From contig JAHEXI010000001.1 in the NCBI GenBank assembly GCA_023252195.1, positions 372,001 through 436,000 on the forward strand: 64,000 nucleotides of DNA, written 5' to 3'. Under the pieces are notes generated by a model, which made no database searches, was not told the DNA's origin, and saw only the letters and a list, made by a program, of their open reading frames with translations. A program made the translations under genes and the position numbers. Positions 12,122 to 30,662 of the stretch are shown here, piece by piece (position 1 is the stretch's first letter; the number at the start of each line of letters is the position of its first letter). Origin of the DNA: Pseudonocardiales bacterium (GTDB lineage Bacteria; Actinomycetota; Actinomycetes; Mycobacteriales; Pseudonocardiaceae).

Positions 12122-12126
12122 GAGAT

Positions 12127-12191
12127 CCTCCCCGGAGTGTCCGGTAGAGGCCATCAGCACGGGCCGTGCGGTTGGGGCGAGCCTCATCGCT
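12127..12191 (-). promoter_or_regulatory. Fluoride (crcB-motif) riboswitch A
   Basis: On the minus strand the aptamer reads GCGATGAGGCTCGCC, then stem 2 with GCACG/CGTGC, then CTGATGGCCTCTACC, as in the Thermotoga fluoride riboswitch. The loop TGAGGC can pair with GCCTCT (pseudoknot). The 3' strand CCTCTACCGG can instead pair with CCGGGGAGG, which holds the ribosome site of the PAP2 gene (one bulged A). This predicts translation that is on when fluoride is bound. Confidence 0.92.
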
Positions 12192-12332
12192 ACCAGCGAT
12201 CATCCCGTGGCGCTGCGCGTCGCCGCCAGCGGGGCACTCGGCGGTGGACCCCGCCACGTCAGTCGTGACGGCGGGCGAGCTGCCATTCCTGGCCGATGGG
12301 TCCTGCTCCCACGTCGGGCCCAGGAGGCCGCG

Positions 12333-12656
12333 ATGGCAGCAACAGGTGCATCTCCCACGTCCCGGCCTCCGAGCCATGGCCCATTACCTCGCGCATACTG
12401 GCTGCCGCCGCACGGCCGCGGCAACGGTCTCGACGCGGGCGCCTGGGCGCCTATCGCGGACGTACCGGCGCAGGACGTCGAGTTCCTGCTGGACGCACTT
12501 CGGGACGCCGACGTGCCCGGATACGCGGCCAAGGTCGGGCCGCCGGGTCTCCGTCGGCAATGCCGGATCTGGGTGGCGTCGCTGCGCTATTCCAGCGCCG
12601 AAGATGCCCTGCGCGAGGCGCTGAACCGGATCCACCACACGTTGCACCGCCAGTAG
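12333..12656 (+). CDS. Small conserved-looking hypothetical protein
   Basis: A 107-residue soluble protein of unknown function. The first 45 residues are proline-rich and probably disordered; the rest is a compact domain containing DVEFLLDALRDADVPGYAA, then a basic RRQCRIWVASLRYSSAEDALREAL. The domain resembles small actinobacterial proteins that carry an ADVPGYAA-type helix, but I cannot name a family. ATG 12333 has AGGAGG five bases upstream, a strong start. It is divergent from the PAP2/ABC unit and 37 bp upstream of the pyrophosphatase gene on the same strand. Confidence 0.7.
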   Translation: MAATGASPTSRPPSHGPLPRAYWLPPHGRGNGLDAGAWAPIADVPAQDVEFLLDALRDADVPGYAAKVGPPGLRRQCRIWVASLRYSSAEDALREALNRIHHTLHRQ

Positions 12657-12693
12657 CCTGGCGTGAAGTGAATCGGGGACGAGGAGGATCGAG

Positions 12694-13199
12694 ATGGAGT
12701 TCGACGTGGTCGTCGAGATCCCCAAGGGGCACCGCAACAAGTACGAAATGGACCACAAGACCGGCCGTATTCGGCTGGACCGGACTCTGTTCACCGCGAC
12801 CTCGTACCCGGCCGACTACGGCTTCATCGAGGACACACTTGGCCGCGACGGCGACCCCTTGGACGCCATGGTGCTGGTCGACGAGCCCACCTTCCCCGGC
12901 TGCGTCATCCGGTGCCGGCCGATCGGCATGTTCCGGATGACCGACGAGCACGGGCCGGACGACAAGGTGCTGTGCCTCCCGGCGGCCAACACCGCCAGAC
13001 GCACCTCCGTGACATCAACGACGTCCCGGAATTCGACAAGCTGGAGATCCAACACTTCTTCGAGGTCTATAAGGACCTCGAGCCGGGTAAGTCCGTGCAG
13101 GGCGGCACGTCCTGGGTCGGGCGGGATGTAGCCGAGGCGGAGATCGAGGAGTCCCGCCGACGCCTGGCCGAACACGAGCGTGATCGACTGCAAGGATAA
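12694..13199 (+). pseudogene. ppa: Inorganic pyrophosphatase with a single frameshift
   Basis: Family I soluble inorganic pyrophosphatase, which hydrolyses PPi and is a well-known fluoride target. From ATG 12694 the product is typical ([45 protein letters not shown]), up to about base 12995. The homologous remainder ([33 protein letters not shown]) continues in another frame to TAA 13199, so one base is missing near 12990-13005. This is either a real lesion or an indel in the sequence. No other damage is visible, so a sequence error is plausible; if real, another copy must serve the cell. The stop is 10 bp before riboswitch B. Confidence 0.85.
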
Positions 13200-13208
13200 G
13201 ATCGAAAC

Positions 13209-13272
13209 GGCGATGAGGCTCGCCGCAACCGCGCGCTCGGCGCTGATGGCCTCTACTGGTACGAGTAGAGGA
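13209..13272 (+). promoter_or_regulatory. Fluoride (crcB-motif) riboswitch B
   Basis: Contains GGCGATGAGGCTCGCC, then stem 2 (GCGC/GCGC), then CTGATGGCCTCTACT. CCTCTACT (13250-13257) is perfectly complementary to AGTAGAGG across a six-base loop, and that arm is the ribosome site (GAGGAG, 13267-13272) of the enolase gene, whose ATG is at 13284. Fluoride binding should pull CCTCT into the pseudoknot and free the site. Confidence 0.95.
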
Positions 13273-13283
13273 GTGCGCCGCTG

Positions 13284-14555
13284 ATGACCGCCGTCCAGAT
13301 CTCCAGCGTCCGCGCCATCGAGGTTCTCGACTCCCGTGGCCGCCCGACCGTCGCGGTGTGGGTCACCTCGAGCGACGATGTCACCGGCCACTGCTCGATA
13401 CCCTCGGGCGCGTCCACCGGCAGCGGTGAGGCCGTCGAGCGCCGTGACGGCGACCCGAAACGGTTCGGAGGCCTGGGGGTGCTCCGGGCGGTCGAAGCGG
13501 TGAACGGCGAGATCGCCGAGCTGCTCACCTCGCGCAAGTGGCCCGACCTGGAACACGTCGACCTGGCGCTGATCGAGCTCGACGGAACCCACAACAAGTT
13601 CCGTCTGGGCGCCAACGCCATCCTCGGCGCCTCCGTCGCGGTCGCCCGAACGATGGCTGCTACCGCTGGGGCACCACTGTGGAGCTGGCTGGCGCCCGAC
13701 GGGGTGCAGCCGCGGCTGCCGGTGCCGCACTTCAACGTTGTCAATGGGGGAGCGCACGCTCCCAACCAGCTGGATTTCCAGGAATTCATGATCGCCCCGT
13801 TGGGTGCGCCGACGATCGCTGAGGCGGTACGGGCTGGCGCTGAGGTGTACACCATGCTGCGGTCGCTGTTAACTGACCTCGGCCACCACACCGGGCTGGG
13901 TGATGAGGGGGGCTTCGCCCCGGAGATCACTGAGCCGGAGGAGGTCCTCAGACTGCTGACCGAGGCGATCGACGGTGCCGGGTACCGAGCCGGCCGCGAC
14001 GGCGTGACGATCGCGCTGGATCCGGCTGCCTCGGGGTTCCGGCAGGTGGACGGGAGCTACCGGGTCGGGGGGCAGCGACTTTCGGCGGCTGATCTGGTGG
14101 ACCGCTACGCGGCCATCATCGAGCGCTATCCGGTGTGGAGCATTGAGGACGGCCTAGGTGAGGACGATGACGACGGCTGGCGACTGCTGACCGATCGGCT
14201 TGGCGAGCGGGTGCAACTGGTTGGCGACGACTCATTCGTGACCGACCCCGACCGGATCCGTCAGGCGGCCGAGGCGGGGATCGCCAATGCGGCGCTGATC
14301 AAGCCGAACCAGATCGGCACCATGTCCCAGTGCCTGGAGGCGATGGCCACCTGTCGGCGCCTGGGCTACGCCCAGATGGTCTCGCACCGGTCTGGAGAGA
14401 CCAGCGACGACCTAATCGCCGACCTGGCGGTGGGCTTAGGCTCCGGCCAGCTCAAGTCCGGCGCGCCGGCCCGCGGCGAGCGAGTGGCCAAATACAACCG
14501 GCTGCTGGAGATCGAGTCGATCAACGCTGATCTGCCCTATGGACTTCCCGGCTAA
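13284..14555 (+). CDS. eno: Enolase, fluoride-riboswitch controlled
   Basis: Converts 2-phosphoglycerate to phosphoenolpyruvate in glycolysis. The 423-residue protein has all catalytic residues: the SGAST loop (41-45), E167, E208 in GDEGGF, metal ligands D246, E288 and D315, the base K340 in IKPNQIGT, H368 in SHRSGET and K391. Several surface motifs differ from housekeeping actinobacterial enolases (DPAASGFRQ in place of the usual DVAATEF), and the neighbours are not the usual ftsB-type genes, so it is probably a second, fluoride-induced copy. Enolase is inhibited by fluoride plus phosphate, which explains why the riboswitch directly upstream would raise its synthesis. Confidence 0.95.
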   Translation: MTAVQISSVRAIEVLDSRGRPTVAVWVTSSDDVTGHCSIPSGASTGSGEAVERRDGDPKRFGGLGVLRAVEAVNGEIAELLTSRKWPDLEHVDLALIELDGTHNKFRLGANAILGASVAVARTMAATAGAPLWSWLAPDGVQPRLPVPHFNVVNGGAHAPNQLDFQEFMIAPLGAPTIAEAVRAGAEVYTMLRSLLTDLGHHTGLGDEGGFAPEITEPEEVLRLLTEAIDGAGYRAGRDGVTIALDPAASGFRQVDGSYRVGGQRLSAADLVDRYAAIIERYPVWSIEDGLGEDDDDGWRLLTDRLGERVQLVGDDSFVTDPDRIRQAAEAGIANAALIKPNQIGTMSQCLEAMATCRRLGYAQMVSHRSGETSDDLIADLAVGLGSGQLKSGAPARGERVAKYNRLLEIESINADLPYGLPG

Positions 14556-14566
14556 CCCGTAGGCGA

Positions 14567-15031
14567 TCACTGCCGGTTGCCGGCAGTCGCGGGGTCGGTC
14601 CACTCGTGGCGGAGATACTCGGTGGCAACCATTCCATTGCGTCGGTCGTGAAGTTTTTTGAGGTGACGGGCCAACGGTGGGCGCAGGTTTATTGCACTGA
14701 ACTCGTTCAGCGGTACGAACGCCGGAGCCAGTCCGTCTTCTTTGAAGCTTGGATGGTCGACGGGGCGGGTTGGTGACAGGAACACGAGGTCGATCAGGCG
14801 TTCGGAATAAGGTCGCACCGTTTCGATGATGAATGCGCACGTACCGGGATCGACGAGCATGCCGGCTTCCTCTCGCACCTCCCGCCGGGCGCATGTCGGC
14901 AGGTCCTCCCCAGGGCGGGGGGTACCACCGGGCAGGGCCCAATCGCCTTTGTCTCGGCGACCGATCAGCAGTACGCGGTCGTTGAGGAACACCACGACCG
15001 AACAACGCAATAGGACGTGAATATGAGACAC
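14567..15031 (-). CDS. NUDIX hydrolase, riboswitch controlled (minus-strand member of a divergent pair)
   Basis: Hydrolase of nucleoside diphosphates linked to another moiety. The 154-residue protein has the Nudix box within GGTPRPGEDLPTCARREV followed by REEAGM, giving the G-x5-E-x7-REU-x-EE pattern. GTG 15031 was chosen because GGAGGGGAGG ends nine bases upstream and because it makes the protein exactly as long as its divergent paralogue at 15316. The two share RCS-VF-N-VL, the Nudix box and LRPPLA-H, so they arose by duplication. Riboswitch C sits immediately upstream. Substrate unknown; it converges tail to tail with eno, 11 bp apart. Confidence 0.92.
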   Translation of the reverse strand: MSHIHVLLRCSVVVFLNDRVLLIGRRDKGDWALPGGTPRPGEDLPTCARREVREEAGMLVDPGTCAFIIETVRPYSERLIDLVFLSPTRPVDHPSFKEDGLAPAFVPLNEFSAINLRPPLARHLKKLHDRRNGMVATEYLRHEWTDPATAGNRQ

Positions 15032-15040
15032 CGGCGCCAG

Positions 15041-15113
15041 CCTCCCCTCCACTTGATGGAGTAGAGGCCATTAGCGGAACGCGGTATCCACGGTTACGGC
15101 GAGCCTCATCGCC
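15041..15113 (-). promoter_or_regulatory. Fluoride (crcB-motif) riboswitch C
   Basis: On the minus strand: GGCGATGAGGCTCGCC, stem 2 formed by GTGGA and TCCGC (one wobble), then CTAATGGCCTCTACT. CCTCTACT can pair with AGTGGAGG (one G-T pair), which runs into the GGGGAGG ribosome site of the minus-strand NUDIX gene. Head to head with riboswitch D, with 74 bp between the two 5' boxes. Confidence 0.94.
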
Positions 15114-15187
15114 GCTTCCAGTGTTCGTGCCGACGCAAGGGTGGCGAAGTTGCGCGACGGCGCGTGATCGTCGAGACTGGTCGGCAA

Positions 15188-15279
15188 GGCGATGAGGCTC
15201 GCCTCTCAAACGCGGCGCCGTAGCCGTTGATGGCCTCTACCGCACCATCCGTGCTGGCAGCACGGACCGGTAGAGGAGG
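15188..15279 (+). promoter_or_regulatory. Fluoride (crcB-motif) riboswitch D
   Basis: GGCGATGAGGCTCGCC, stem 2 (CGGC/GCCG region), then TTGATGGCCTCTACC. The expression platform is longer than in B and C: CCTCTACCG pairs with CGGTAGAGG, enclosing a second hairpin CCGTGC/GCACGG. The outer right arm ends in GAGGAGG at 15273-15279, the ribosome site of a short leader frame coupled to the NUDIX gene at 15316. Confidence 0.94.
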
Positions 15280-15283
15280 CCCC

Positions 15284-15319
15284 TTGAGTCCGCGAGACCT
15301 TGTCAGGATCGCGCTGTGA
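15284..15319 (+). CDS. Possible 11-residue leader peptide
   Basis: TTG 15284, four bases after GAGGAGG, opens a frame MSPRDLVRIAL whose TGA (15317-15319) overlaps the GTG start of the NUDIX gene (GTGA). This is the layout of translational coupling. The rare start codon and short length make it uncertain, but riboswitch E has the same arrangement. Confidence 0.35.
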   Translation: MSPRDLVRIAL

Positions 15320-15780
15320 GCGCCGGCGAGCTTGTCGTACTTCGCTGTTCCACGATCGTCTTTCGCAACGGCGAAGTCCTCGTGGTCCACCGGTCGGCCC
15401 GAGGGGACTGGGTCCTGCCCGGGGGTCGACCCAAACCGCGGGAGGGAGCGCTGGCCTGCGCGCGCCGGGAGGTCCGCGAGGAAACCGGCCTGAACATCGA
15501 CCCTGGCCGGTGCGCGTTCGTACTCGATACGATCGCCCCGCTCGGCGGGCAGCGTGTCATCGAGGTGGTGTTCCTGTCTCCGGACCGGCTGTCCGCGCGG
15601 CCCGTCGGTTCCGAACCCGGCATGGCGCCGAAATTCGTCGCGGTTGACCGGCTCGGCGAGCTGAACTTACGACCCCCGCTGGCGGGTCACATCCGGGCGC
15701 TGCACGCGAACCGGAACTACTCGACGGCGCCATACCTGGGCAACCTGTGGCGGGCCGCGGATAAAGTGCTGGACCGGTGA
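15316..15780 (+). CDS. NUDIX hydrolase heading a three-gene operon
   Basis: Paralogue of the minus-strand NUDIX gene and also 154 residues. The Nudix box lies in GGRPKPREGALACARREV followed by REETGL. GTG 15316 has a weak AGGA seven bases upstream, so translation may depend on the leader frame whose stop overlaps the start. The stop codon overlaps the start of the zinc-ribbon/HEAT gene (ATGA), which in turn overlaps the dynamin-like gene, giving a tightly coupled operon behind riboswitch D. A role in removing a damaged or misformed nucleotide during fluoride stress is conceivable but is inference only. Confidence 0.92.
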   Translation: MSAGELVVLRCSTIVFRNGEVLVVHRSARGDWVLPGGRPKPREGALACARREVREETGLNIDPGRCAFVLDTIAPLGGQRVIEVVFLSPDRLSARPVGSEPGMAPKFVAVDRLGELNLRPPLAGHIRALHANRNYSTAPYLGNLWRAADKVLDR

Positions 15781-16187
15781 TGACCGGCCCGAGGTACTAC
15801 TGCTGGTCTTGCTATGCGCCGGCGCAGACCGCATCGGGCCGCTGTGAGCACTGCGGTGGGCGCATCGAGGCGCCGCCGGAGGCGGACTATGCCGACCTGT
15901 TGATGTGGGCCCTGGACCACCCCCTTGCCGAGCGTCGGCTCGTAGCCGCGCAGGTACTTGGCCAGCGACGCGAGGCGCGCGCTGAAGGTCGACTCCGGGA
16001 GCTGGTCTGGACCCGGGAGGACCCCTACCTGGCCGCAGCCGCGGTGCAAGCCCTGGTAGCGATCGTCGGGCGGCAGGCCTGCGCAGACCTGCTCACGGAA
16101 CTCGCTACGCGCGGTCCGGCACCGGTTCGCCGGACCGCGACCGACCTGCTCAGTGATCATGGCGGGACCAGGAAGGTGGCCGGATGA
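15780..16187 (+). CDS. Zinc-ribbon plus HEAT-repeat-like small protein
   Basis: A 135-residue soluble protein. The N-terminus holds two CxxC knuckles (YCWSCYAP and CEHCGG), which predicts a zinc ribbon. The rest reads as HEAT-like helical repeats (LAERRLVAAQVLGQR, DPYLAAAAVQALVAIVG, PAPVRRTATDLLSDHG). Such proteins are usually adaptors. The start overlaps the NUDIX stop and the end overlaps the dynamin-like start by ATGA, so it probably partners one or both. Exact role unknown. Confidence 0.8.
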   Translation: MTGPRYYCWSCYAPAQTASGRCEHCGGRIEAPPEADYADLLMWALDHPLAERRLVAAQVLGQRREARAEGRLRELVWTREDPYLAAAAVQALVAIVGRQACADLLTELATRGPAPVRRTATDLLSDHGGTRKVAG

Positions 16188-17873
16188 CCGAGCCGGCAGC
16201 GCTGGCCGCGGCGGCAGGCGTCTTGGAGCCGCTGGTCCCGGCGCAGCGGCAGGCAGCTCTGCGCGACGCGGTCGCCCGCGTTGCGCAGGGGCATGCCCGG
16301 GTACTTGTGCTCGGCGAGGCCAAACGCGGCAAGAGCACGCTGGTCAACGCGCTGTTCGGTGCACCGCTGCTACCCACCGGGGCGCTACCGCTGACCTCGG
16401 TCACGACTGTGGTCGCAGTGGGCCCCGCCGCCCGGGCGGCGGTTCGTTACCGGGACGGCACGCACGCGAACATTGAACTGAGCGCGGTCGCCGAGCTGGT
16501 CAGTGAGAGGGGCAACCCGGGCAACAAGCGCGGCGTGGACCGGGTGCTCGTCACTGCCCCCTGTGACTTCCTTCCACCCGGCACGGAGGTGGTCGACACC
16601 CCCGGAACGGGTTCGGTCAACCTCGCCAACACCGACGAAGCCCGGCGTGCGTTGTCCACTCTCGATGTTGCGGTGTTGGTGGTGGCAGCTGATCCTCCGG
16701 TCTCGGTAGCTGAGCTGGATTTGGTGGCCGATGCGATGGGCACCGCGTCGCGGGCGATCGTGGTGGTCAACAAAGCCGATCTGTTGGCCGATGATGAGCT
16801 GGCCGAGGTCGTGAATTTCACCGCGCGGGTGGTTGCCGAACGGCTCGGCCAACCGGTGCAGGTCTTCCCGCTGTCGGCGTTGCCCGCCCGTCGCCGCTGC
16901 GACGGGTTCGACACCTTCGCGGCCTGGTTGGCGGGCGAGTTGGAGTCACACGGCTCAGCCCACGCGCTGGCCTCCACCGCCCGCGCGCTGCGCCGCGAGG
17001 CAACCGTGCTGCGCGACGCCCTGCGGGTGCAGGAGGAGCTGCTGCGGCGCCGCGGCGAGCACGGCACCGTCACCATCGCCGCTCTGTCGGAGATCCTGGA
17101 CCGGGCCGGCGACCGGGCTCGGGCCGCCGTGGATCACCTGCACGGCGAGGCGCGGCGGCTGCGAGGCCGGCTCGACGAGACCCACGAAAAGGCGGTCGCG
17201 GGTGCCCTGGCGGCGTCGGCTCAGATACTCGCTGAGCTATCCGAGTGTCACGGCGACGGCTCCCCGGAGGACCTCGCCGAGAGCGTCCGGTCCACGGTGG
17301 CCGACGCGACCAGGGTTCGGGCGTAGGACTGGTTCGCCGCCACCGCCGCCGACCTTGACACCGGCATGCGGCAAGCCGCAGTCCGGGCGATGGAGTCGCT
17401 GCGCGCCGAACTGGCCCAGGCCCGCCGGGCGACCGGCGAGCTGCTGCAGGTGGAACTCTCCGACGTCGTCGACCTGCCGGGCGTAGAGCCACCGCGGACC
17501 ACCTCCTTCGAAGCGTCGGTCCATCCCGGCTGGGAGGAGCTGGTCTCAGCGGCGGTCAAGCGTCGGCTACCCGCCCGGCTGCGCCGCCGCCAGGTGCTGC
17601 GCGAGCTGGAGGGCTGGCGCCAGACGGCTGTCCCGCGCCCCTTCGGTCGGGCCCGCTCGACACTGCAGGACAGCCTGCGCGAGGCGGACCGAGCTGCCGA
17701 GCGCAGCATCGAGGCCACCCGCACCGAGCACATCGCGGCGTTGCAGCAGGGCGTGGCTGCAGCGCAGCACGAGCGAGGTCGGTCGGAGGGGCGCGATTGT
17801 CTCGGCGCTGGCGGACCTTGCACAGCGCTTCTCCATCCTGGACAAGGTGCTCACTCTGCTGGGCAGCCGCTAG
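16184..17873 (+). pseudogene. Dynamin-like GTPase, interrupted by a stop codon and a frameshift
   Basis: Large GTPase of the bacterial dynamin-like group, expected at the membrane. The first 380 residues carry the G1 loop GEAKRGKST, the switch LPLTSVTT, the G3 motif DTPGTGS and the G4 motif NKADLL, followed by helical stalk sequence. An in-frame TAG at 17324 interrupts RVRA/DWFAATAADL, yet the same frame continues with coding-like sequence to about 17780. There an extra base in a GAGGGG run shifts the frame to the true C-terminus (AIVSALADLAQRFSILDKVL, stop TAG 17871). Two lesions suggest decay; sequence errors remain possible. Confidence 0.82.
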
Positions 17874-18014
17874 CCGAGGTTCGCCTGCCATCCACACGCA
17901 GTTCGGCGAACACGTCGTGCAGCCGGGCCGTGAAGTGCTCATCCCGTTACCGCATCCAAAGGCGCCCCTCTTGTCTGACATCTTTCTTGTCTACCCACTC
18001 GGGGACGAGTATTA

Positions 18015-18030
18015 TCGAACATATGTTCGA
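18015..18030. promoter_or_regulatory. LexA (SOS) box over the start codon of the HNH gene
   Basis: TCGAACATATGTTCGA is a perfect 16-bp palindrome matching the actinobacterial LexA box (TCGAAC, four bases, GTTCGA). The ATG of the 13E12 gene (18023) lies inside it, so LexA would repress directly at the start of translation or transcription. Confidence 0.88.
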
Positions 18031-19552: not shown

Positions 19553-19563
19553 GTGGTCGCAGG

Positions 19564-19872: not shown

Positions 19873-19899
19873 CCCGATGAGGGGTGAGGAGGAACAAGA

Positions 19900-20526
19900 G
19901 TGGGTGTCGATCTGTGGTGGTATCTCGAGGTGAACGAGTTAGCTCGGCAGACGCCGTGGCTACATGACGTTTTCGCCGCGTACGCGCTGTGGGGCGGGCT
20001 CGTCGTTCTCGCCGGGATGCTGGTCGCCGGCTATCTGGTGGGCCGTAGACGTGACAGGTCGGTGTCGGTGGTGTCGGCGGTGGTCTGCGCCGGGGTGGGC
20101 ACCGTGGTCGCGCTGCTGGTCAACCAGGATCTGGTCTCCCCGGCGGTGGGACGGGCGCGACCATGCCAGGTCCTGGCGCACGTGGAGGTGCTGTTGAGCT
20201 GTGCGCACGACTACTCGTTCCCGAGTGATCATTGTGTGCTGGCGGGCGCGTTTGTAGCTGGGTTGGCGTTCCTAGGGGTGCGCTGGGCGGTACCGGCGGC
20301 CGGGGTGGCGTTGATGCTGGCTTTCTCCCGCGTGTACACGGGGGTGCATTATCCCAGCGACGCCGCAGCGGGGCTGGTGATGGGCGCCGTGATCGGAGTG
20401 GTGGTGGTCGTCGTACTGAGGCCGACGGTCGGCCGGCTCGCTAGCCGGATGGCCGGCACCCGCCTGTACCCGCTGGTTGCGTCCCGCCCCAGCACGACTC
20501 CACGCTGCGCCCCCGTGGCGCATTAA
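19900..20526 (+). CDS. PAP2-family undecaprenyl-diphosphatase-like protein
   Basis: Integral membrane phosphatase of 208 residues with six hydrophobic segments. The PAP2 active site is present as GRARPCQ, YSFPSDHCVLAGA and SRVYTGVHYPSD, where the S-x-H of motif 2 is SDH as in the BcrC branch of undecaprenyl-pyrophosphate phosphatases. GTG 19900 is preceded by GAGGAGG at nine bases. A role in recycling the lipid carrier of cell-wall synthesis is likely by family. It is unrelated in sequence to the broken PAP2 gene at 11.6 kb. Confidence 0.9.
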   Translation: MGVDLWWYLEVNELARQTPWLHDVFAAYALWGGLVVLAGMLVAGYLVGRRRDRSVSVVSAVVCAGVGTVVALLVNQDLVSPAVGRARPCQVLAHVEVLLSCAHDYSFPSDHCVLAGAFVAGLAFLGVRWAVPAAGVALMLAFSRVYTGVHYPSDAAAGLVMGAVIGVVVVVVLRPTVGRLASRMAGTRLYPLVASRPSTTPRCAPVAH

Positions 20527-22590: not shown

Positions 22591-22982
22591 TTGCTACTGC
22601 CCTGGGCGAGCATGGTGTCCCGCGCCGGAGTCCGCACGGCCTTGCCGAAGCGCTCGGCGACGACGAGCAGTGCGGCTTGCCACAGTGTCTGGGTCAGCGC
22701 CAGCAGTGGCACCGCGACCACGGTCACCACGTAGCCGATGATCGACAAAGCCCAGTGCCGGCCGGTGCGGTCGGACAGCCGCCCGGTGCCTAACCGCAGC
22801 ACCAGCGCGACCGCCTCGCCGAACCCGGTCACGAACCCGACGACGAGCGCGCTGGCGCCTATCGTCGCCAGAAACGGGCCGACGATCGCGCGAGCACCCT
22901 CGTAGACGAAGTCCGCCAGGCAGCTGACCAGGCCAAAGGTCAGCACGAACCGCAGCGGAGACAGCCGGTTACCGACCGTCAC
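22583..22982 (-). pseudogene. MFS transporter, N-terminal third only
   Basis: Begins as a normal major-facilitator protein from GTG 22982 (LSPLRFVLTFGLVSCLADFV, then GASALVVGFVTGFGEA and the RLSDRTGRHW loop between helices 2 and 3) and continues to TPARDTMLAQ near residue 118. After that the sequence loses similarity where it meets the MutS-like remnant. Intact relatives have about 400 residues. Its start overlaps the stop of the HyfB-like gene (GTGA), so it was the last gene of the riboswitch E operon before being cut. Confidence 0.8.
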
Positions 22983-25039
22983 GCGAGTCCGGCCACGACC
23001 GCGAGCACGGCGAGCAGAGCGATCAACATGTAGCCGAGGTAGGCGTCCAGCCGGCCGTTCTGCATTCTCTTCGCGGTGCGCACCAACAGCAGCAGTGGTA
23101 GGCGCAGCGGGCGGTACAGGAACCGCTCGACGACCTCCACGACGTCAGCGGTGTAACCGACGTGGGCTCCCGCGGCGTCGCGGTGCGGGTCGCCGGTGCG
23201 CCCGCCGGTCTCCCGTTCCAGGACGGTGAGCTCGGATCGGGTGAGCAGCAGGTTGGCCAGCACCTTGCGGGTCGGGTTGGCGAACCCGAAGGGGGTGTAC
23301 TGGTTCTCGCCGGCCACCCCGCCGGTCGCCGAGCGCCAGGCCGGGACCCGACGCACCGCGAACAGCCGACTGCCCCCGAAGGCGACACTCATCCCCAGCA
23401 CCGCTAGCAGCAGCAAGGGCATCACGACGACGAGCCAGGACGGCGACAGGGCGGAGAACTCGGAGTAGACCGGCTGCAGCACCCACTCCGATTTGAGCGC
23501 CCCGGCGGCGACGTCTCGCCCCACGACGGGGTCGAGTCCAGCGGCCAGCACCCTGATCCAAAGCGGGGCAACCGCGGCCACGCCCAGGCATCCCGCCCCA
23601 AGTATGGCCAGACCGGCGGTGCCCAGCGGGCCGACGTCGCGACCGCGGATCGCCTCGGCCGGTCCCCGAGGCCCGAGCACGATGAGCCCAACGATCCGGA
23701 CAAATGCCACTGCGGCGAACCCGGCGGTGATCGCGACCAGGGCGCCGGCCAGCGCCAGCGGCAGCGCATAGGCCAGCCGACCGATCCGGAACTGCTGCAT
23801 GAGCGATTCGAGCAGGAACCACTCCGACACGAACCCCACAGTCAACGGCAGGCCCGCCAGGGTGAGCGCCCCGACGGCCAGACCCGTTCCGCTGGCGGGC
23901 AGGCGATGCCCAACGCCGCGCAGCGCCTCTAGGTCGGTGGTGCCCGTCGCATCCTCCAGCCCGGACGTGGCCGAGAACAGTAACGATTTGGCCAGGGCGT
24001 GCGCCACCACTTGCAAGGTCGCCGCGAGCAGACCCACCGCGACCAGCGGCGGCCGGTCCACTGCGGCTCCGACCATGGCGACGCCGTAGCCGACGCTGAT
24101 CAGACCACCGTTCTCAATGCTGGAATACGCCACCACTTCGGCCAGATCGGTCTGCACGGTGGCGTGCGCGATGCCCAGCAACGCAGTGAACCCGCCCAGC
24201 AGCAGGATGATCACCGCCAGCCAGCCGGGTGGGACCCGCAGCAGGTCCAGGGTGCGCCACATCCCGTAGAAGCCGACGTTGACGGCCACCCCGGCCATCA
24301 CGGCGCGCAGCGGTCCGGGAGCGGCCCGGTAGCCGCGCGGCATCCAGACGTGCAGCGGGACCAGCCCGACCTTGACGGCGAACCCGCCGACCAGCAGCGC
24401 GAACGCGGCATCGCGCAGCCCAGAACGCGGCACCGACGCGAGCTGGGCGAAACTGAAGCCGCCCGCGCGTGCGGCGAGCAACAGAAAACCGAGCAGCAGT
24501 GCCGCGCCGCTGACCTTGCCGAGGGTGACCGTGATGATCGCCGCGTCGGCGCGGCCAACTTTGGTCCGCTCGAAGCCGGCCAGCAGGTAGAACGCGATCG
24601 TGAGCAGCTCCCAGGCCAGCAGGAATAGGAACGCGTTGTCGGCGGTGACGATGACCGCTACCGAACCCAGCGCCAGGCAGTGCGTCGCTGCCAAGCTCCG
24701 GTACCGGACCCGGCCCGGGCGGGCGGCCCACGCCGCACACACCAGGCTCACCGGCACCGCGACCGCGAAACTGATCATCAGGAACAGTCCGGACAGCCGA
24801 TCGATGGTCAGGGCTGTGGTGCCGAAGCCCAGCGCCCCCGATCCCAGAGCAGAGTCCAGACCGAGCCGAACGCCCGCGCCGGAGATGCCCGCGGCACCGA
24901 CCACGACCAGCAGCACCGACGCCGCAGCAGCCATCAGGTAGGGCACCGCGCGCGGAATGGCGTAGCGCACCCCTGCCACCAGGTCGATCAGTCCGGCACC
25001 GAGCAGGGCCAGCAAGGCTATGGCGAGCACCCACACCAT
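22979..25039 (-). CDS. HyfB-like (NuoL/antiporter-type) membrane subunit
   Basis: Proton- or ion-pumping antiporter-type subunit of a complex-I/hydrogenase-4-like complex, similar to mycobacterial Rv0083. The 686 residues form about 16 helices. The pumping motifs are present: ELLTIAFYLLAGFERT (acidic residue in helix 5), VGLVPLHVWMPRGYRAAPGP in the broken helix 7, and VVAHALAKSLLFSATSG. ATG 25039 is seven bases after the stop of the HyfI-like gene; a longer frame overlaps that gene and looks non-coding. The C-terminal half includes a long loop and a final helix (YLGYMLIALLAVLAVVAGL) as in HyfB. Confidence 0.9.
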   Translation of the reverse strand: MVWVLAIALLALLGAGLIDLVAGVRYAIPRAVPYLMAAAASVLLVVVGAAGISGAGVRLGLDSALGSGALGFGTTALTIDRLSGLFLMISFAVAVPVSLVCAAWAARPGRVRYRSLAATHCLALGSVAVIVTADNAFLFLLAWELLTIAFYLLAGFERTKVGRADAAIITVTLGKVSGAALLLGFLLLAARAGGFSFAQLASVPRSGLRDAAFALLVGGFAVKVGLVPLHVWMPRGYRAAPGPLRAVMAGVAVNVGFYGMWRTLDLLRVPPGWLAVIILLLGGFTALLGIAHATVQTDLAEVVAYSSIENGGLISVGYGVAMVGAAVDRPPLVAVGLLAATLQVVAHALAKSLLFSATSGLEDATGTTDLEALRGVGHRLPASGTGLAVGALTLAGLPLTVGFVSEWFLLESLMQQFRIGRLAYALPLALAGALVAITAGFAAVAFVRIVGLIVLGPRGPAEAIRGRDVGPLGTAGLAILGAGCLGVAAVAPLWIRVLAAGLDPVVGRDVAAGALKSEWVLQPVYSEFSALSPSWLVVVMPLLLLAVLGMSVAFGGSRLFAVRRVPAWRSATGGVAGENQYTPFGFANPTRKVLANLLLTRSELTVLERETGGRTGDPHRDAAGAHVGYTADVVEVVERFLYRPLRLPLLLLVRTAKRMQNGRLDAYLGYMLIALLAVLAVVAGLA

Positions 25040-25046
25040 CGGCGGT

Positions 25047-25829
25047 TCACCGACCTTCCGGGGGGATCCGGCCGACGGCCAGCAGCAGCGCATGCAGCAG
25101 GCTGAACGGGGACGGGGGTGAGCCGGGGACCCACACATCGACGTCGACCAGTTCGCCGATTCCCTCAGCAACCGCGTAGCTGGGGGCGACCAGCCCGCCA
25201 CTAACGGCATCGGTTCCGGCAGCGATCACGACCAGCGGTCGGGGGGTGGCTTCGACCGTGCGGCGTAGTGGCTCGGCCATGCCGTGCGACCCGACCCCGG
25301 TGATCAGTAGGACGTCGGCGTGCCGGGGGCTTGCGGTGAAGAAGATTCCCAGCCGGTGCACGTCGTAGACGGGGTTGAGCAGGGCTAGCGCTTCCCACTC
25401 CTCCGACCCGTCCGAGCCCGCGTCGACGTGCCTGATGTGCACAGATCGGCGAAACATCCGCCGGACCCGGGCCGCCAACTGGCGGCGGACCAGTTCGACG
25501 GCCTCGTCGGTTTCCGGGAGTTGCGGCACGACCAGGGCCTGGCGATGCAGCCGCGCGGTCTGGCTACCGGATACCCAGCCGAACAGGTCCGGCCGTTCCC
25601 GCACACACCGTCCACATAGGATGCACTGGCCGGCGTCGAGCTGTAGCGCACCGGCCCGGTTGTGGATCGCCCCTGTTGGGCACAGCGTGTCGTCGACCGG
25701 TACGCCGTTGGCAGACCCGACGACTAGTGGGCGTACCGAAGCGGGGAACGCCTCGGCGTAGGGGTCCGACCGGCGCGGGTAGCCGGTGGTGACTACCCCG
25801 TTGCGCAGCCCGCGCAGCACCCACGGCAT
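25047..25829 (-). CDS. HyfI-like subunit: ferredoxin domain fused to a NuoB-like domain without N2 cysteines
   Basis: Peripheral small subunit resembling mycobacterial Rv0082. Residues 40-80 hold a ferredoxin-type site: C50-P in LCPTGAI plus C69, C72 and C75 in CILCGRC, enough for one [4Fe-4S] cluster; the partner cluster is lost (RP instead of CP at 79-80). The C-terminal part follows NuoB/HyfI, but every cysteine that would bind cluster N2 is replaced: AAGTDAVSGG and VPGSPPSPF stand where GSCANGGG and VPGCPP are usual, and the CC pair is absent. It therefore cannot pass electrons in the standard way. The stop of the upstream gene touches its ATG. Confidence 0.88.
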   Translation of the reverse strand: MPWVLRGLRNGVVTTGYPRRSDPYAEAFPASVRPLVVGSANGVPVDDTLCPTGAIHNRAGALQLDAGQCILCGRCVRERPDLFGWVSGSQTARLHRQALVVPQLPETDEAVELVRRQLAARVRRMFRRSVHIRHVDAGSDGSEEWEALALLNPVYDVHRLGIFFTASPRHADVLLITGVGSHGMAEPLRRTVEATPRPLVVIAAGTDAVSGGLVAPSYAVAEGIGELVDVDVWVPGSPPSPFSLLHALLLAVGRIPPEGR

Positions 25830-27338
25830 CTACATCACCACCCCGGCGATGGACAACCCAAAACTGGCCTCGTTGAACGGAAAGTCGGTCAGGATGTCGC
25901 CGACGAAGATCGACGGGAACAGCATGAGGTTGTGAAACGATGCCGAGCGCGGCGCGCAGTAGCTGATCCGCGCGGCATCGTCGACGTCGAGGAGGTAGAG
26001 CACCTCGCCCTGGGGGGCTTCGGCCCACCCCACGGCCTGCCCCGCCCCCGGCTGCGCGACCACGCTGAGCTGGTCGGTGTCGCAATCCGGCAACCGTCCG
26101 ATCGCCTGACGGGTGAGATAGAAAGCCGCTTCGATCTCGTCGATCCGGACCTGCATCCGAGCCTGCGCGTCGCCCGCGCTGCGGACCGCGACAGGTGGCG
26201 GCGCCAGCTGCTGGTAGCCGTCGTAGGGGCGGGACGCCCGGCAGTCGTCGGTGCAGCCCGAGCCGCGGCCGATCGGTCCGAGCGCGCCGTGGGTCCGGGC
26301 CAGCTCGGGATCCAGGGGCCCAGCGGTGCGGACGCGATCCAGGAACGACGAAGTGTCCAGCAACGCGCGCACGTCACCGTTGATGGCGTGTTGCAGCCGG
26401 TCGAGCTCGGCGGTGACCTCGTCGGCGGGCAATCGGGGCAGAGCGGTCACGCCACCGGGGACGACGACGCCGCGGCCGAAGCGGCTGCCGGACAGCGCGC
26501 CGACCAGCCGCAGGGTGTGTTCCTTGTGCAGCCCGAACCGCGCGGTGGCCACGGCTAGGCCGGCGGCGTCGGTGAGCTTGCCCAGGACGTCGAGGTGGTT
26601 GGCGATGCGCTCCAGCTCAGCGTGCAGCACCCGGATCATCGCAGCGGCGACCGGGACGCGGGCGACGGCGAGGGTCTCCACAGCGTGCGCGAAGGCCAAC
26701 GCATGCGCCACCGACGCGATGCCCTCGACCCGTTCGGCCAGCAGCACCCCATCGTCGACGGTCATACCCTCGAACCGCTTCTGTACGCCGCGGTGCTTGG
26801 CGTGCGGGCGGATCCGCAGGTGCGGGATGTCCTCACCGGGTGTTTCCACCAGGTATTCCACCGATTCGAAGACACCGGAGCGCACCGGGCCGTGCGGGAT
26901 GGTGAAAACCCCGGTGCCGTGCAGGTGCACCGACAGCGCCCGCTCGTAGGGCTCGATCCGGTCCGGCTGACCGGGTGCGCCGGGGTGGGGCAACAAGCGG
27001 CTGGCGTCATCTCTGTGCGGCAGTACCAACGGGTCCAATCGGGGGTGCCCGTCGGGCAGCAGCCCGACCAGGTCGTGGATCGCCCGCTCGTACCAGAACG
27101 CCGCGGGCAGCTGCGGCGTCAGGGCCGGATAGTGGGTGACGCCGGCCGGCAGGGTCGCCGAAAGCGCGGTGACGTCGCCGTCGTGCGCGACCAGCGCGGT
27201 GAGCGAGGTTCCTGCATCGGGATCACCCCGGCCGAGCAGCGCAGCGAAGCGCTGGCCGCTGGCCAGGCGCATGTGCAGGGCATGGTGTAGGGCGCCGACC
27301 GGATCCTGCGCGGGGCTGCGCACCGCGGACCGGCTCAC
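25830..27338 (-). CDS. HyfG/HycE-like subunit (NuoC-NuoD fusion) lacking the [NiFe] ligands
   Basis: Large subunit of a hydrogenase-4-like complex, related to mycobacterial Rv0087. The N-terminal 150 residues are the NuoC-like part (YERAIHDLVGLLPDGHPRLD) and the rest is NuoD/HycE-like (HLRIRPHAKHRGVQKRFEGM, AELERIANHLDVLGKLTD). The two CxxC pairs that bind nickel and iron in real hydrogenases are absent: the first site reads ERVEGIASVAHA and the C-terminus ends DFPFNEASFGLSIAGVVM. It may have become a structural or quinone-linked subunit. GTG 27338 overlaps the stop of the HyfF-like gene (GTGA). Confidence 0.9.
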   Translation of the reverse strand: MSRSAVRSPAQDPVGALHHALHMRLASGQRFAALLGRGDPDAGTSLTALVAHDGDVTALSATLPAGVTHYPALTPQLPAAFWYERAIHDLVGLLPDGHPRLDPLVLPHRDDASRLLPHPGAPGQPDRIEPYERALSVHLHGTGVFTIPHGPVRSGVFESVEYLVETPGEDIPHLRIRPHAKHRGVQKRFEGMTVDDGVLLAERVEGIASVAHALAFAHAVETLAVARVPVAAAMIRVLHAELERIANHLDVLGKLTDAAGLAVATARFGLHKEHTLRLVGALSGSRFGRGVVVPGGVTALPRLPADEVTAELDRLQHAINGDVRALLDTSSFLDRVRTAGPLDPELARTHGALGPIGRGSGCTDDCRASRPYDGYQQLAPPPVAVRSAGDAQARMQVRIDEIEAAFYLTRQAIGRLPDCDTDQLSVVAQPGAGQAVGWAEAPQGEVLYLLDVDDAARISYCAPRSASFHNLMLFPSIFVGDILTDFPFNEASFGLSIAGVVM

Positions 27339-28807
27339 AACGCACCTCCCAGTTCGGCGGCCCCGCGGGCGATGAGGGCGGCCAGCGCGTCGGGCGGGTG
27401 CAGGCCCAGCACCAGCAGTGCGAGCACTCCAACGACCATGGGTGCCACCATCCAGGCGCTCGGCTCGCCGCGCGGCGCTGTCGCGGCGCCCGGGCCGCCA
27501 GGGCGCGGCACGAACAGCATCCGGGTGGTCGCCATCGACAGCCCGAGGAAGGCCAGCGTGACCAGGGCGACCATCGCTGCGGCCGGCACGTAGCGGGCCG
27601 AGGCCAGGCCGCCGGCGACGATCTGGAACTCGCTGCGGAACAGCCCGAACGGGGGCATCGCAGACAGCGCGAGGATCGCACAGAGGAACAGCGGGGCGGT
27701 CCACGGCAGGCGGTCGAGGCCGCCTCGGATCCGTCCGATCTCCTTGGTGCCGTAGGCGCGCACCAGCACGCCGGCACCGAAGAACGCGTTGCTCTTGGCC
27801 GCGGCGTGCGCCAGCACGTGCAGCAGCACTCCGGTGAACGCGATCGGGGCGCCGAAGGAAACCCCGATGGCCAGGATGCCCATGTGCTCGACACTGGAGT
27901 AGGCCAGCAGCCGTTTGAGGTTGCCCTGCTCGACCAGATACAGCGCGGCCAGCAGCAGTGACAACATGCCGAAGACGAGCAGCACCCCGCGCGGGAAGCC
28001 GCTGCCCAGGGTGGTGGCGGCGATCTGGTAGTAGCGCAGCACGGCGTAGAAGCTGACCGCGAGCAGCGCCCCTGACAGCATCGCCGAAACCGGGGTGGGG
28101 GCCTCGGAGTGCGCATCGGGTAGCCAGGTGTGCACCGGGAACAGTCCCACTTTCGTGCCGAACCCGACCACCGCCAGCACGAACGCAAGCTGCACCGCCG
28201 GGTGTGGCAGCGCCGTCCCGGCGTGCAGCAGCGGGGTGAAGGCCAGGTCGAAGGACGGCCCGAGCACCGAGGCGCCGGCGTAGTCCATGACGATGGTCGC
28301 CAGCAGCGCGATCCCCAGCCCGGCCGAGGCGATGAGCACGTACTTCCACGCGGCCTCCGCGCTGCCCCGGGTGCCGTCCAGCGCGACCAGCAACGCCGAG
28401 ACCACCGTGGTGATCTCCACCGCGATCCACAGCAGCGCGAGGCCGTTCATCAACGGCGCGCACAGCATGGACCAGGCGAACAGGTTCAGCCCGACCCAGA
28501 ACAGCCCCGAGTAGCGGGAGAAGTCGGCTCGCTCGTGCTCGCCGCGCAGGTACCCAACGGAGTACACGGCGGCCGTCGCGTAGAGAAATGCGGTGCCCAG
28601 CTCGAAGACGACCGAGATTGCGTCGGCTCGCAGGAAGCCCAGCACGACCGGCCCGTGGGCCGCGGCGGGCACCAGGGTCAGCGTGAGCCCGAGGCACGCC
28701 ACGCCGATCGTCACCGAGACAGCGGGCGCGATCCACCGTCCGGGCAGCAGCGACAGGACCACGCCGAGCAGCGGCAACACGGTCAGGGCAAGTAGTACAG
28801 CTGGCAT
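27335..28807 (-). CDS. HyfF-like (NuoN/antiporter-type) membrane subunit
   Basis: Second antiporter-type pumping subunit, 490 residues and about 14 helices, similar to mycobacterial HycQ (Rv0086). The conserved helix-7 lysine is in GTKVGLFPVHTWLPDAHSEA, the helix-5 glutamate in LLWIAVEITTVVSALLVAL, and the second half has LLAYSSVEHMGILAIG with HVLAHAAAKSNAFFGAG. It starts at ATG 28807, four bases after the HyfE-like stop. Intact pumping motifs contrast with the missing redox centres of its partner subunits. Confidence 0.92.
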   Translation of the reverse strand: MPAVLLALTVLPLLGVVLSLLPGRWIAPAVSVTIGVACLGLTLTLVPAAAHGPVVLGFLRADAISVVFELGTAFLYATAAVYSVGYLRGEHERADFSRYSGLFWVGLNLFAWSMLCAPLMNGLALLWIAVEITTVVSALLVALDGTRGSAEAAWKYVLIASAGLGIALLATIVMDYAGASVLGPSFDLAFTPLLHAGTALPHPAVQLAFVLAVVGFGTKVGLFPVHTWLPDAHSEAPTPVSAMLSGALLAVSFYAVLRYYQIAATTLGSGFPRGVLLVFGMLSLLLAALYLVEQGNLKRLLAYSSVEHMGILAIGVSFGAPIAFTGVLLHVLAHAAAKSNAFFGAGVLVRAYGTKEIGRIRGGLDRLPWTAPLFLCAILALSAMPPFGLFRSEFQIVAGGLASARYVPAAAMVALVTLAFLGLSMATTRMLFVPRPGGPGAATAPRGEPSAWMVAPMVVGVLALLVLGLHPPDALAALIARGAAELGGAL

Positions 28808-28811
28808 GTCC

Positions 28812-29498
28812 TCACCCCCGCAGCTCGGTGAGCGCTTCGGTGGACAGTGACTCCGACTGCTCGTGATGGACCCGGATGAGCACGCCGAACACCACGACGG
28901 CGACCAGCAGGTCGAACAGGAACGCGACCTCGAGGATCAGCGGCAGCCCGGCGGCGACCACCAGGCTGGCCAGCGACACTCCATTTTCCAGCGCGAAGAA
29001 CCCGATCGCCTGGGAGGCGACGTCCCGCCGGACGATCATCAGCACGAACGACACCAGGATGACGGCCACCGGCACCGCGAGCGCGGCAGCCGGCAGCACC
29101 GGGCTGCCCAGCTGAAACCGGGCACTGGCGAAGAACCCGAACGCGGCGACGGCGACGGCGAGCAGAACCATGCTGGCCACCCCGAGGGCGCGGCTACCCG
29201 CGATCTCCTGGTTGGTCCGGCGCAGCAGCCGGAACATGACCAGCGGGACCGCTACCACCTTGAGCAGCACCGAGAATGCTGCCAGCCCATAGAGCTCGGG
29301 CACGTCCCGGGCGAAGGCCACCACCACGGCGAGCACCGAGATCACCACCGACTGCGCCGCGTAGAGCCGGATCTGGGCACGCAACAGGGTCGCTTGCAGC
29401 ATGCCGAACTCGATGACCAGCATGAGCACCGCCAACGCGGTGGTCAGCCCGGCGAAGCTGGACGGCGGCTCGGCGACACCGGCGATGAGCGATGCCAT
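28812..29498 (-). CDS. HyfE-like (NuoK-type) membrane subunit
   Basis: A 228-residue membrane protein with seven hydrophobic helices, the size and pattern of hydrogenase-4 component E and of mycobacterial HycP (Rv0085). The NuoK-like region near the end contains AIGFFALENGVSLASLVVAA with the membrane glutamate used in proton transfer. The ATG overlaps the stop of the HyfC/HycD-like gene by ATGA, so the two are coupled. Confidence 0.9.
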   Translation of the reverse strand: MASLIAGVAEPPSSFAGLTTALAVLMLVIEFGMLQATLLRAQIRLYAAQSVVISVLAVVVAFARDVPELYGLAAFSVLLKVVAVPLVMFRLLRRTNQEIAGSRALGVASMVLLAVAVAAFGFFASARFQLGSPVLPAAALAVPVAVILVSFVLMIVRRDVASQAIGFFALENGVSLASLVVAAGLPLILEVAFLFDLLVAVVVFGVLIRVHHEQSESLSTEALTELRG

Positions 29499-30454
29499 CA
29501 GCCACCCCCGAAGTACAGCGTGAACACCGACAGAACCGCCAGCATGAAGGCCGCCGACACGAATTCAGTGATCTTGAACAGGCGAAGCTTGGCGAACGAG
29601 TCGTCGATCACCGCGATGCCGACGCCGAGCAGCGCACACTTGCCCACCAGCGCCAGGATCGCCAGCGCCACGGCGAGCAGGGAGGCGTCAGACGCAAGCC
29701 CCCACGGCGCGATGAACACATTGATCAGGATCACGAACAGGATGAGCTGCTTCATCGTCGAACCCCAGCGCAGCAGAGCCAGATAGGGGCCGGAGTGCTC
29801 GAACGACCGGGCCTCCTCGATCATCCCGAACTCGTTAGTGCCGGTATGGGTCTCGACCGGGATCCGTCCCGTCTCGAAGAGGATCACCATGAACAGTGCC
29901 GCCGCGGCGAGCAGGTGCGCGGGGCGAACAATTTGGTCAGCCGAGGCCCGGACGGTCTTCGCCAGCGCGTACGGCAGATCGGTACCAGTGACCAGCGCGA
30001 CGGTGAACACCACGAACAGCACCACCGGTTCGGTGATCGCGCTGAAGGTCTTGGCGCGGCTGGCTCCCAACTGAGCATAGGGCGAGCCGGTACTGGCAGC
30101 GGCGATGGCGATGACGAAGCTGGCCAGGGCGAGGATGAACCCACCGCCCAGGATGTCGCCCATGTACCCGAACGGCAGCGGGAACGTCGTCAGCACCGGG
30201 ATGAGCAGTGGCACAGTGAGATAGCAGGTCATTGCGACCAGCGGCGCGGCCAGAAACACCCAGCCCGTCCCGAACGGCGCCAGCGCCTCTTTACCGAACA
30301 GCTTGGCGATGTCGTAGTACGGCTGCAGCACCCGTGACCCACGCCGGCCCTGCAGCCGGGTCTCCACCCGGGCGATCACGCCGTTGATCCCCGGCGCCAC
30401 GACCAGCACCGTGAGCACCTGCAGGGCCTGGACCACGGGGATAGCTAGGGTCAT
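29498..30454 (-). CDS. HycD/HyfC-like (NuoH-type) membrane subunit, first gene of the operon
   Basis: Membrane subunit that anchors the peripheral arm and forms the quinone or proton channel in complex-I-like enzymes; relative of mycobacterial HycD (Rv0084). The 318 residues contain PGINGVIARVETRLQGRRG, LQPYYDIAKLFGKE and the acidic loop FETGRIPVETHTGTNEF, all NuoH-like. ATG 30454 was chosen because it fits the family start (MTLAIPVVQ) and is overlapped by the stop of a leader frame with a strong ribosome site. GTG 30520 would place the ribosome site inside the coding sequence. Riboswitch E lies directly upstream. Confidence 0.92.
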   Translation of the reverse strand: MTLAIPVVQALQVLTVLVVAPGINGVIARVETRLQGRRGSRVLQPYYDIAKLFGKEALAPFGTGWVFLAAPLVAMTCYLTVPLLIPVLTTFPLPFGYMGDILGGGFILALASFVIAIAAASTGSPYAQLGASRAKTFSAITEPVVLFVVFTVALVTGTDLPYALAKTVRASADQIVRPAHLLAAAALFMVILFETGRIPVETHTGTNEFGMIEEARSFEHSGPYLALLRWGSTMKQLILFVILINVFIAPWGLASDASLLAVALAILALVGKCALLGVGIAVIDDSFAKLRLFKITEFVSAAFMLAVLSVFTLYFGGG

Positions 30455-30504
30455 CGCTGGCACCACCGCATGGCAGGCCAGCTCGTGCAATGCCCGTCGA
30501 CCAC
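30451..30504 (-). CDS. Possible 17-residue leader peptide of riboswitch E
   Basis: GGAGGAGG (30511-30518) is followed after six bases by GTG 30504, which opens MVDGHCTSWPAMRWCQR. The TGA stop overlaps the ATG of the HycD-like gene (ATGA). The spacing is ideal, so ribosomes released by the riboswitch would translate this frame and then reinitiate. The peptide itself need not have a function. Confidence 0.45.
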   Translation of the reverse strand: MVDGHCTSWPAMRWCQR

Positions 30505-30510
30505 CCCAGA

Positions 30511-30604
30511 CCTCCTCCACCGTCGACCAGCGCGCAGCACTGGATGATTCGGTAGAGACCGTCAGCGTCCCGGGTGGTCCGCGGTTTCGGCGAGCCTCAT
30601 CGCC
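30511..30604 (-). promoter_or_regulatory. Fluoride (crcB-motif) riboswitch E
   Basis: On the minus strand: GGCGATGAGGCTCGCC, a stem 2 built from GCG/CGC and CC/GG around a GA/GA internal loop, then CTGACGGTCTCTACC. TCTCTACCG can pair with CGGTGGAGG (two wobble pairs), enclosing CCAGTG/CGCTGG, and the right arm leads into the GGAGGAGG ribosome site. The changes relative to copies A-D keep both the pseudoknot and the hairpin pairings. Confidence 0.92.
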
Positions 30605-30662
30605 GTAGCCTCAGTGTGGCCGGTGATCGTAAGCCGACGCAAGTGGACGCGGCGGTCGGCGG

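Follow-up and report, generated by a model that had tools for sequence, protein, structure and literature searches.

The window analysed here, a 64,000-nucleotide (nt) stretch of DNA from a Pseudonocardiales bacterium (contig JAHEXI010000001.1, positions 372,001–436,000), carries five fluoride riboswitches within 18.5 kb, one of which fronts a six-gene operon for a relative of respiratory complex I. We consider it probable that the region is a fluoride-defence island, in which ON switches induce spare enzymes together with a proton-moving complex akin to the energy-converting hydrogenase-related (Ehr) complexes. This reading rests on the aptamers and the gene content, on the loss of [NiFe], quinone-site and proximal-cluster residues from the complex and the retention of its antiporter residues, on a near-constant linkage of complex and riboswitch, and on the grouping of the linked complexes in one clade. 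The translational mode of control, induction by fluoride, the movement of protons and the energy source behind it are predictions from sequence.

An Rfam covariance search (RF01734) matches all five of the aptamers proposed by an earlier reading of the letters alone (the sequence-only reading): riboswitch A (12138–12200, − strand, 32.5 bits), ahead of a broken PAP2-like gene and an ABC ATPase; B (13200–13262, + strand, 48.5 bits), ahead of enolase; C (15055–15122, − strand, 37.5 bits), ahead of NUDIX gene 1; D (15179–15246, + strand, 31.0 bits), divergent from C and ahead of NUDIX gene 2 and the HEAT and dynamin genes; and E (30546–30613, − strand, 33.6 bits), ahead of the complex-I-like operon. 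B and C lie above the Rfam gathering score of 34; A, D and E fall 0.4–3.0 bits under it, with E values of 7.8e-6 to 5.8e-5 in a 31-kb search. The whole genome (4.74 Mb, 48 contigs) holds no RF01734 match beyond these five at an E value ≤ 0.001. With a custom model built from 42 aptamers, the window's five included (R1), the copies score 53.7–62.6 bits (60.2 bits for copy E), all five being training sequences. Over the same 42 aptamers the pseudoknot, P1 and P3 are paired in 98.9% of cells, a level matched by 0/500 shuffles, and there are two-sided changes in P1, in P3 and in the pseudoknot. As far as sequence can tell, all five are confirmed as real RF01734-type fluoride riboswitches. Their ends had been misplaced by 9–35 nt, some spans reaching into the expression platform, and the boxes described as common to all copies are not: the first base of box 1 deviates in copy A, giving a non-standard outermost P1 pair, and variants occur in C (CTAATGGCCTCTAC), D (TTGATGGCCTCTAC) and E (CTGACGGTCTCTAC). 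Each aptamer does point into a gene as proposed, the gene behind copy A being frameshifted.

Divergent pairs of fluoride riboswitches, 57–168 nt apart, recur in the window (15055–15246) and at loci L006, L011, L012 and L014; an aptamer match at L014:9645–9693 keeps P1 and the pseudoknot and seemingly misses the P3 hairpin. A weak sixth aptamer-like match near the left edge of the island (9968–10015, + strand; 16.3 bits, E value 0.0024) was found with R1 alone, has no Rfam match and was rejected as a sixth aptamer.

The target of riboswitch E, which escaped the sequence-only reading, is an operon of six genes on the − strand. From the aptamer onwards it encodes a NuoH/HycD-like (hyfC-like) membrane subunit (29498–30490; Pfam NADHdh; start tentative), a HyfE-like membrane subunit (28812–29498; NCBIfam NF008556, 86.8 bits, under the cut-off of 136), a HyfF-like antiporter-type subunit with conserved Glu/Lys (27335–28807; Pfam Proton_antipo_M), a fused 30k+49k large subunit (25830–27341), a 20-kDa NuoB/HycG-like subunit (25047–25829) and a HyfB-like antiporter-type subunit (22979–25210; Pfam Proton_antipo_M). 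Pfam detects no NADH-oxidising module among the six genes; a NuoD-like match occurs separately, on contig C48.

The large subunit has formate hydrogenlyase subunit 5 as its top solved relative (E value 9.1e-40) and lacks the [NiFe] cysteines: at the four [NiFe] Cys positions of Escherichia coli HycE the window has Glu, Ala, Ser and Gly. In an alignment of 62 rows (the window and 61 actinobacterial loci; archaeal L086 left out), the first position is Glu in all 61 rows with a letter (one gap), and a lone Cys appears at the second position in one row, at the third in five and at the fourth in none. The 20-kDa subunit has Asp, Glu, Asp and Ser at the HycG cluster-ligand columns, and those that we take to be the proximal [4Fe-4S] ligands hold no Cys in 58/58 rows, mostly Asp/Glu and Ser/Ala being found there. 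Where NuoD has its quinone-site His and Tyr (H224 and Y273 of NuoCD), the window has Phe and Gly, with Gly in the Tyr column of 61/61 rows with a letter. The antiporter-type subunits retain the Glu of transmembrane helix (TM) 5, the Lys of TM7 and the Glu of TM12, as we assume them to be assigned in NuoM. All three are kept in 56/56 rows for HyfF and, among HyfB rows with a letter, in 53/53, 53/53 and 54/54, respectively (rows with more than 40% identity and 60% length, drawn from 55 and 53 loci). With both the [NiFe] Cys pairs and the proximal ligands lost, the operon is therefore not one for a formate hydrogenlyase or hydrogenase; its predicted product is Ehr-like, a complex-I/group-4 core with antiporter-like subunits and no [NiFe] Cys. 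In the window and in L092, L099 and L086, Asp/Glu often stand in for the Fe–S cysteines of the NuoB-like subunit, some or all of which have been replaced; a hard-metal or proton site is possible at these positions.

Complex and riboswitch travel together. Searching GTDB genomes with the large-subunit protein alignment (A1), which is blind to RNA, returned 62 loci, 61 actinobacterial and one archaeal (L086), seven of which have no usable operon start and are untestable. In 53 of the 55 testable loci R1 places an aptamer ahead of the hyfC-like gene and on its strand, in 50 of them at an E value ≤ 0.01 and in three weakly (L051, L067 and L073; E values of 0.04–0.07). No upstream aptamer is found in L068 or in archaeal L086, either with R1 or with Rfam under lax filters, a setting at which L073 again gives a weak match only. 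Riboswitches of this operon made up part of the R1 training set, and five of the 53 positive loci (L026, L028, L031, L035 and L081) are training sequences; Rfam at its gathering score recovers the operon aptamer in 7/7 and 3/6 of the loci supplied to it (10/13). The gap between aptamer and operon is at most 153 nt in 48 loci, and in five mycobacterial loci a gap of ~500 nt holds a NUDIX gene, so that the order is riboswitch–NUDIX–complex. The tie is near-universal in this clade.

We compared 20 more distant complexes, taken from the 27 best places outside our own loci in a 396-genome phylum sample. The seven places outside this set are in G405, G383, G668, G556, G567, G470 and G362, the first two having an Rfam match 3.56 kb upstream. 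Four of the 20 carry all four [NiFe] Cys and have no aptamer match at an E value ≤ 0.01. Eight Cys-less complexes have no nearby aptamer directed into the operon; L103, scored here as unlinked, shows a partial match on the opposite strand ahead of its operon (E value 0.0014). The other eight have an upstream aptamer, weak in L101 (E value 0.054) and ~1.9 kb away in L089–L091. A tree built from 83 rows gathers the linked complexes in a single branch (SH-aLRT 97), which comprises 61 linked, 7 untestable and 1 unlinked row. Once the untestable rows are set aside, the riboswitch label changes twice; L051, L067, L073 and L101 count here as linked on weak matches (E values of 0.04–0.07), and L089–L091 with the aptamer at ~1.9 kb. 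The tree was made by a quick method, which warned of long branches in the outgroup and in L086, and leaves out L030. Within it the linked group joins other Cys-less complexes against the hydrogenases (support 88, without star), with no published Ehr rows included.

The five riboswitches are most likely translational ON switches. In all five copies the 3′ half of the pseudoknot (GCCTCTAC or GTCTCTAC) is able to pair with a downstream GAGG-type stretch resembling the Shine–Dalgarno sequence of the following gene. Without fluoride, the 3′ pseudoknot strand would pair with the Shine–Dalgarno; with fluoride, the pseudoknot would form, the Shine–Dalgarno would be freed and the gene would be translated. 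Across 160 riboswitches the mean energy of the cognate duplex is −14.3 kcal/mol, against −11.8 for shuffled and −11.7 for swapped downstream DNA, and the cognate duplex is better than all 20 of its own shuffles in 40/160 (25%); the shuffles preserve base content only and the riboswitch rows are related, so the p-values are not independent tests. A Shine–Dalgarno-like motif lies within or touching the duplex in 108/157 strong duplexes, and a T-run follows in 4/157. Terminator control was considered and set aside on those T-run counts and on a scan that found no terminator-like site at 12000–15700 of the window, a ruling that covers those data only. The stop of a TTG leader open reading frame (ORF) of 11 codons (15286–15321) overlaps the GTG start of NUDIX gene 2, and the two may be coupled.

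Fluoride would thus induce, through the five switches, the spare enolase, the NUDIX hydrolases, the HEAT/dynamin operon and the six-gene Ehr-like complex. Hydrogen fluoride (HF) crosses into the cell as a weak acid and F− exits via Fluc channels, bringing in one proton per cycle. The complex would then move protons, either as a redox pump or by Mrp-like Na+/K+–H+ exchange, and so restore pH and the proton-motive force. Its likely role, judged from the residues kept and lost, is proton or cation translocation against the HF acid load.

How the complex might be driven divides the possibilities. That it is redox-dead and works as an Mrp-like cation/proton antiporter induced by fluoride is a serious if minority possibility. 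The active-site and proximal-cluster residues are gone while the antiporter residues stay, and Na+/H+ antiporters, according to a 2024 review (PMC11139923), are the next commonest riboswitch-associated class after exporters; the conserved ferredoxin-like Cys and an entire hydrophilic arm would, however, be superfluous to such a machine. A redox-driven proton pump, fed via the ferredoxin-like domain, we hold as a tentative proposal. The 20-kDa subunit carries at its N terminus a ferredoxin-like four-Cys motif (CP...CxxCxxC), kept in 58/58 rows and also in the distant linked L089–L091, L093, L100 and L101, and this conservation argues for some electron transfer over a plain antiporter. A pump would likewise use the retained antiporter residues, yet there is no proximal cluster, quinone His/Tyr or [NiFe] site to accept the electrons.

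The rest of the island lies on both strands. Behind copy A, on the − strand, are a gene for a PAP2-like membrane phosphatase (labelled by eye; probably starting at ATG 12121), which three-frame reading shows to be frameshifted and whose first piece has no Pfam match, and an open ABC ATPase gene (10800–11627; Pfam ABC_tran). Of the PAP2/ABC target proposed for copy A, then, the ATPase stands and the PAP2-like gene is broken. On the + strand follow an inorganic pyrophosphatase gene (12694–13198; Pfam PF00719), in two open pieces with a frameshift on three-frame reading, and an open enolase gene (13284–14555; Pfam PF00113/PF03952); both are second genomic copies, the other enolase being on contig C5 and the other pyrophosphatase on C18. 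NUDIX hydrolase 1 (14567–15028, − strand; Pfam PF00293 on a longer ORF) has a likely GTG start at 15028, placed from the Shine–Dalgarno position. Copy D is followed on the + strand by NUDIX hydrolase 2 (15316–15780; Pfam PF00293), a HEAT-repeat protein (15777–16187; Pfam HEAT_2) and a dynamin-like GTPase (16184–17326; Pfam Dynamin_N) that terminates at an in-frame TAG. The zinc-ribbon/HEAT and dynamin-like genes named earlier are seen as HEAT_2 and an interrupted Dynamin_N, the zinc ribbon having no Pfam match. Continuing in frame, the ORF after the interrupted dynamin gene (17366–19552, + strand) has a Pfam match to DUF222, and homologous DNA is present in a genus relative whose island is reduced (L027, L138). 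A truncated MutS-like ATPase fragment (21705–22529, + strand) is matched by blast to riboswitch-fronted homologues, one of which (L037) contains MutS_V. Beyond riboswitch E, on the − strand, lie a DUF190 protein (30663–31865; Pfam PF02641, three matched stretches) and a crcB (Fluc) pair (31736–32604), in which crcB1 (~32098–32496) is identified by Pfam CRCB and crcB2 (~31736–32104) by tblastn overlap with crcB1 relatives, the starts being inferred. Outside these genes, a palindrome at 39864–39923 has perfect 21-base arms (CATCCAGCAGGCTCAGCGGGG and CCCCGCTGAGCCTGCTGGATG) around an 18-base loop, with a sub-threshold match to a miRNA family.

Taken as a unit, the island has a patchy distribution. 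In a genome of the same genus (G048) homology to the window runs to ~9302 and resumes from ~32561, the block of ~23 kb between (9302–32561) being absent; ~3 kb of other ORFs replace it, one with an ABC-type Walker A recognised by eye. Other genus members retain parts of the block. G138 and G191 show DUF190–crcB homology at the site and have no fluoride aptamer match genome-wide. Under strict filters, 4/11 genus genomes and 30/297 family genomes have any aptamer, and 5/297 family genomes, the window's included, have at least five matches. The density of switches, called unusual in the sequence-only reading, is high and not unique: 28/62 related loci have at least three riboswitches and 10/62 at least five (E values ≤ 1e-6; L029 and L030 are near-duplicates).

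The same partners recur. Among 198 riboswitches the next gene is the complex in 46 (44 loci), MutS-like in 23 (22 loci), NUDIX in 13 (12 loci), histidine phosphatase in 12, the pyrophosphatase/universal-stress group in 11, crcB in 11 and enolase in 9, counted with a rough ORF score under which 44/198 rows are singletons, some spurious, and with L028, L081 and L030 dropped as duplicates. The NUDIX–fluoride link suggested from the window alone is borne out by these 12 loci and by the five mycobacterial riboswitch–NUDIX–complex loci. Across 102 loci (duplicates included), the window's MutS-like protein is matched in 30, its enolase in 23, its dynamin in 15 and its HEAT protein in 3; a second PAP2 gene of the window (19900–20526) is matched in 2/102. 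Ten ORFs were scanned, in two islands without the complex (L006 and L010), for a Na+/H+ antiporter in its place. L010 has one, but its closest riboswitch faces in the opposite direction, and no inference is drawn. The region is probably a fluoride-defence island of patchy occurrence and a dense example of known riboswitch-controlled fluoride resistance. The earlier picture of one fluoride regulon holds as a dense response island; crcB/DUF190 and the pyrophosphatase are not riboswitch-fronted.

Several observations weigh against the defence-island reading as a whole. No aptamer stands directly before the crcB pair/DUF190 or the pyrophosphatase. Among the five window copies, only D outdoes all its shuffles in duplex energy, and the copy A duplex equals its shuffled mean. 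In the complex, Ala in most rows and otherwise Asn stands where NuoM has its TM8 Lys, and the ferredoxin-like motif is kept throughout. The basal linked complexes L089–L091 and L093–L095 retain part or all of the proximal-cluster Cys, and cofactor loss is therefore not required for the link to fluoride. HypD is encoded in the genome. Five genes look broken, namely PAP2-like, pyrophosphatase, dynamin, MutS-like (truncated) and MFS (148 amino acids only); this copy of the island may be decaying, or assembly indels may lie behind them.

That the five aptamers are relics of a decaying island, little expressed, is improbable. These broken genes would fit it, as would the presence of an aptamer in just 4/11 genus genomes and the internal gaps in complex-operon matches of the close relatives L015/L081, L017 and L033, in parts of which group the complex may be decaying. 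Against it, aptamer pairing is near-complete, enolase, both NUDIX genes, crcB, DUF190 and the six genes of the complex have uninterrupted reading frames, and the indels are possibly assembly errors. A true formate hydrogenlyase or hydrogenase-4 that shifts metabolism to fermentation under fluoride is most improbable: the top solved relative, the nearest NCBIfam names (hydrogenase 4 for three membrane subunits), HypD and the literature label discussed below speak for it, whereas the missing [NiFe] Cys pairs and proximal ligands refute a [NiFe] site by sequence, the NCBIfam scores are under their cut-offs, and the four distant complexes with a full set of [NiFe] Cys are without a riboswitch match at an E value ≤ 0.01. 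Absence of HypD, tried as support for a non-hydrogenase, failed, as HypD is present in 12/14 genomes searched, this one included (C7:215348–216397); a separate [NiFe] hydrogenase elsewhere in the genome is therefore likely.

In island GI3 of Enterobacter cloacae FRM (PMC5533749), one riboswitch lies upstream of six genes, crcB, eno and ppaC among them. Both are genomic islands with crcB, enolase and pyrophosphatase genes, under riboswitch control in GI3; the window has five riboswitches and adds NUDIX and dynamin genes and the complex-I-like operon. Formate hydrogenlyase is named among genes linked to the crcB motif or fluoride riboswitch by Weinberg et al. 2010 (PMC2864571) and by the 2024 review PMC11139923; the genes so labelled are probably the same kind of operon as that behind copy E, which by its residues is not a hydrogenase. 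Ehr complexes, as described in PMC6349859 and PMC10284858, lack [NiFe] ligands, and the 2023 paper of these gives the physiological role of the complexes found there as unknown. The window operon resembles them in its kinship to complex I and group 4 hydrogenases, its antiporter-like subunits and its missing [NiFe] ligands; it differs in that the main branch of this clade is linked to fluoride riboswitches, bears a ferredoxin-like N terminus on the 20-kDa subunit and is without the proximal-cluster ligands as well. Mrp antiporters and respiratory complex I likewise have Proton_antipo_M subunits with key Glu/Lys, but the NADH module and quinone site belong to complex I and not to the window operon, and Mrp, which we take to lack a hydrophilic arm, differs there from the window complex. 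A literature search, mostly not full-text and with the gene lists of the 2012 discovery paper outside its scope, found no description of a link between Ehr and fluoride.

The island type itself is known; what is new is the strong, clade-wide tie of fluoride riboswitches to a hydrogenase-less relative of complex I. On balance we favour an actinobacterial complex-I-like clade dedicated to fluoride survival, which would be translated only when fluoride is sensed and would counter the influx of HF acid by moving protons or cations; 'formate hydrogenlyase' would then be a misnaming. If so, an Ehr-type complex would gain a physiological role, and a label repeated in a recent review would be corrected. 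The usual account of fluoride resistance consists of exporters, spare enzymes and antiporters. Should export of fluoride make HF entry a proton leak, cells need a means of expelling protons, and a fluoride-switched relative of complex I would supply it. Such a finding would offer a test bed for the role of cofactor-less complex I relatives, and simple deletions could test the connection it would draw between fluoride stress and the NUDIX, MutS-like and dynamin genes.

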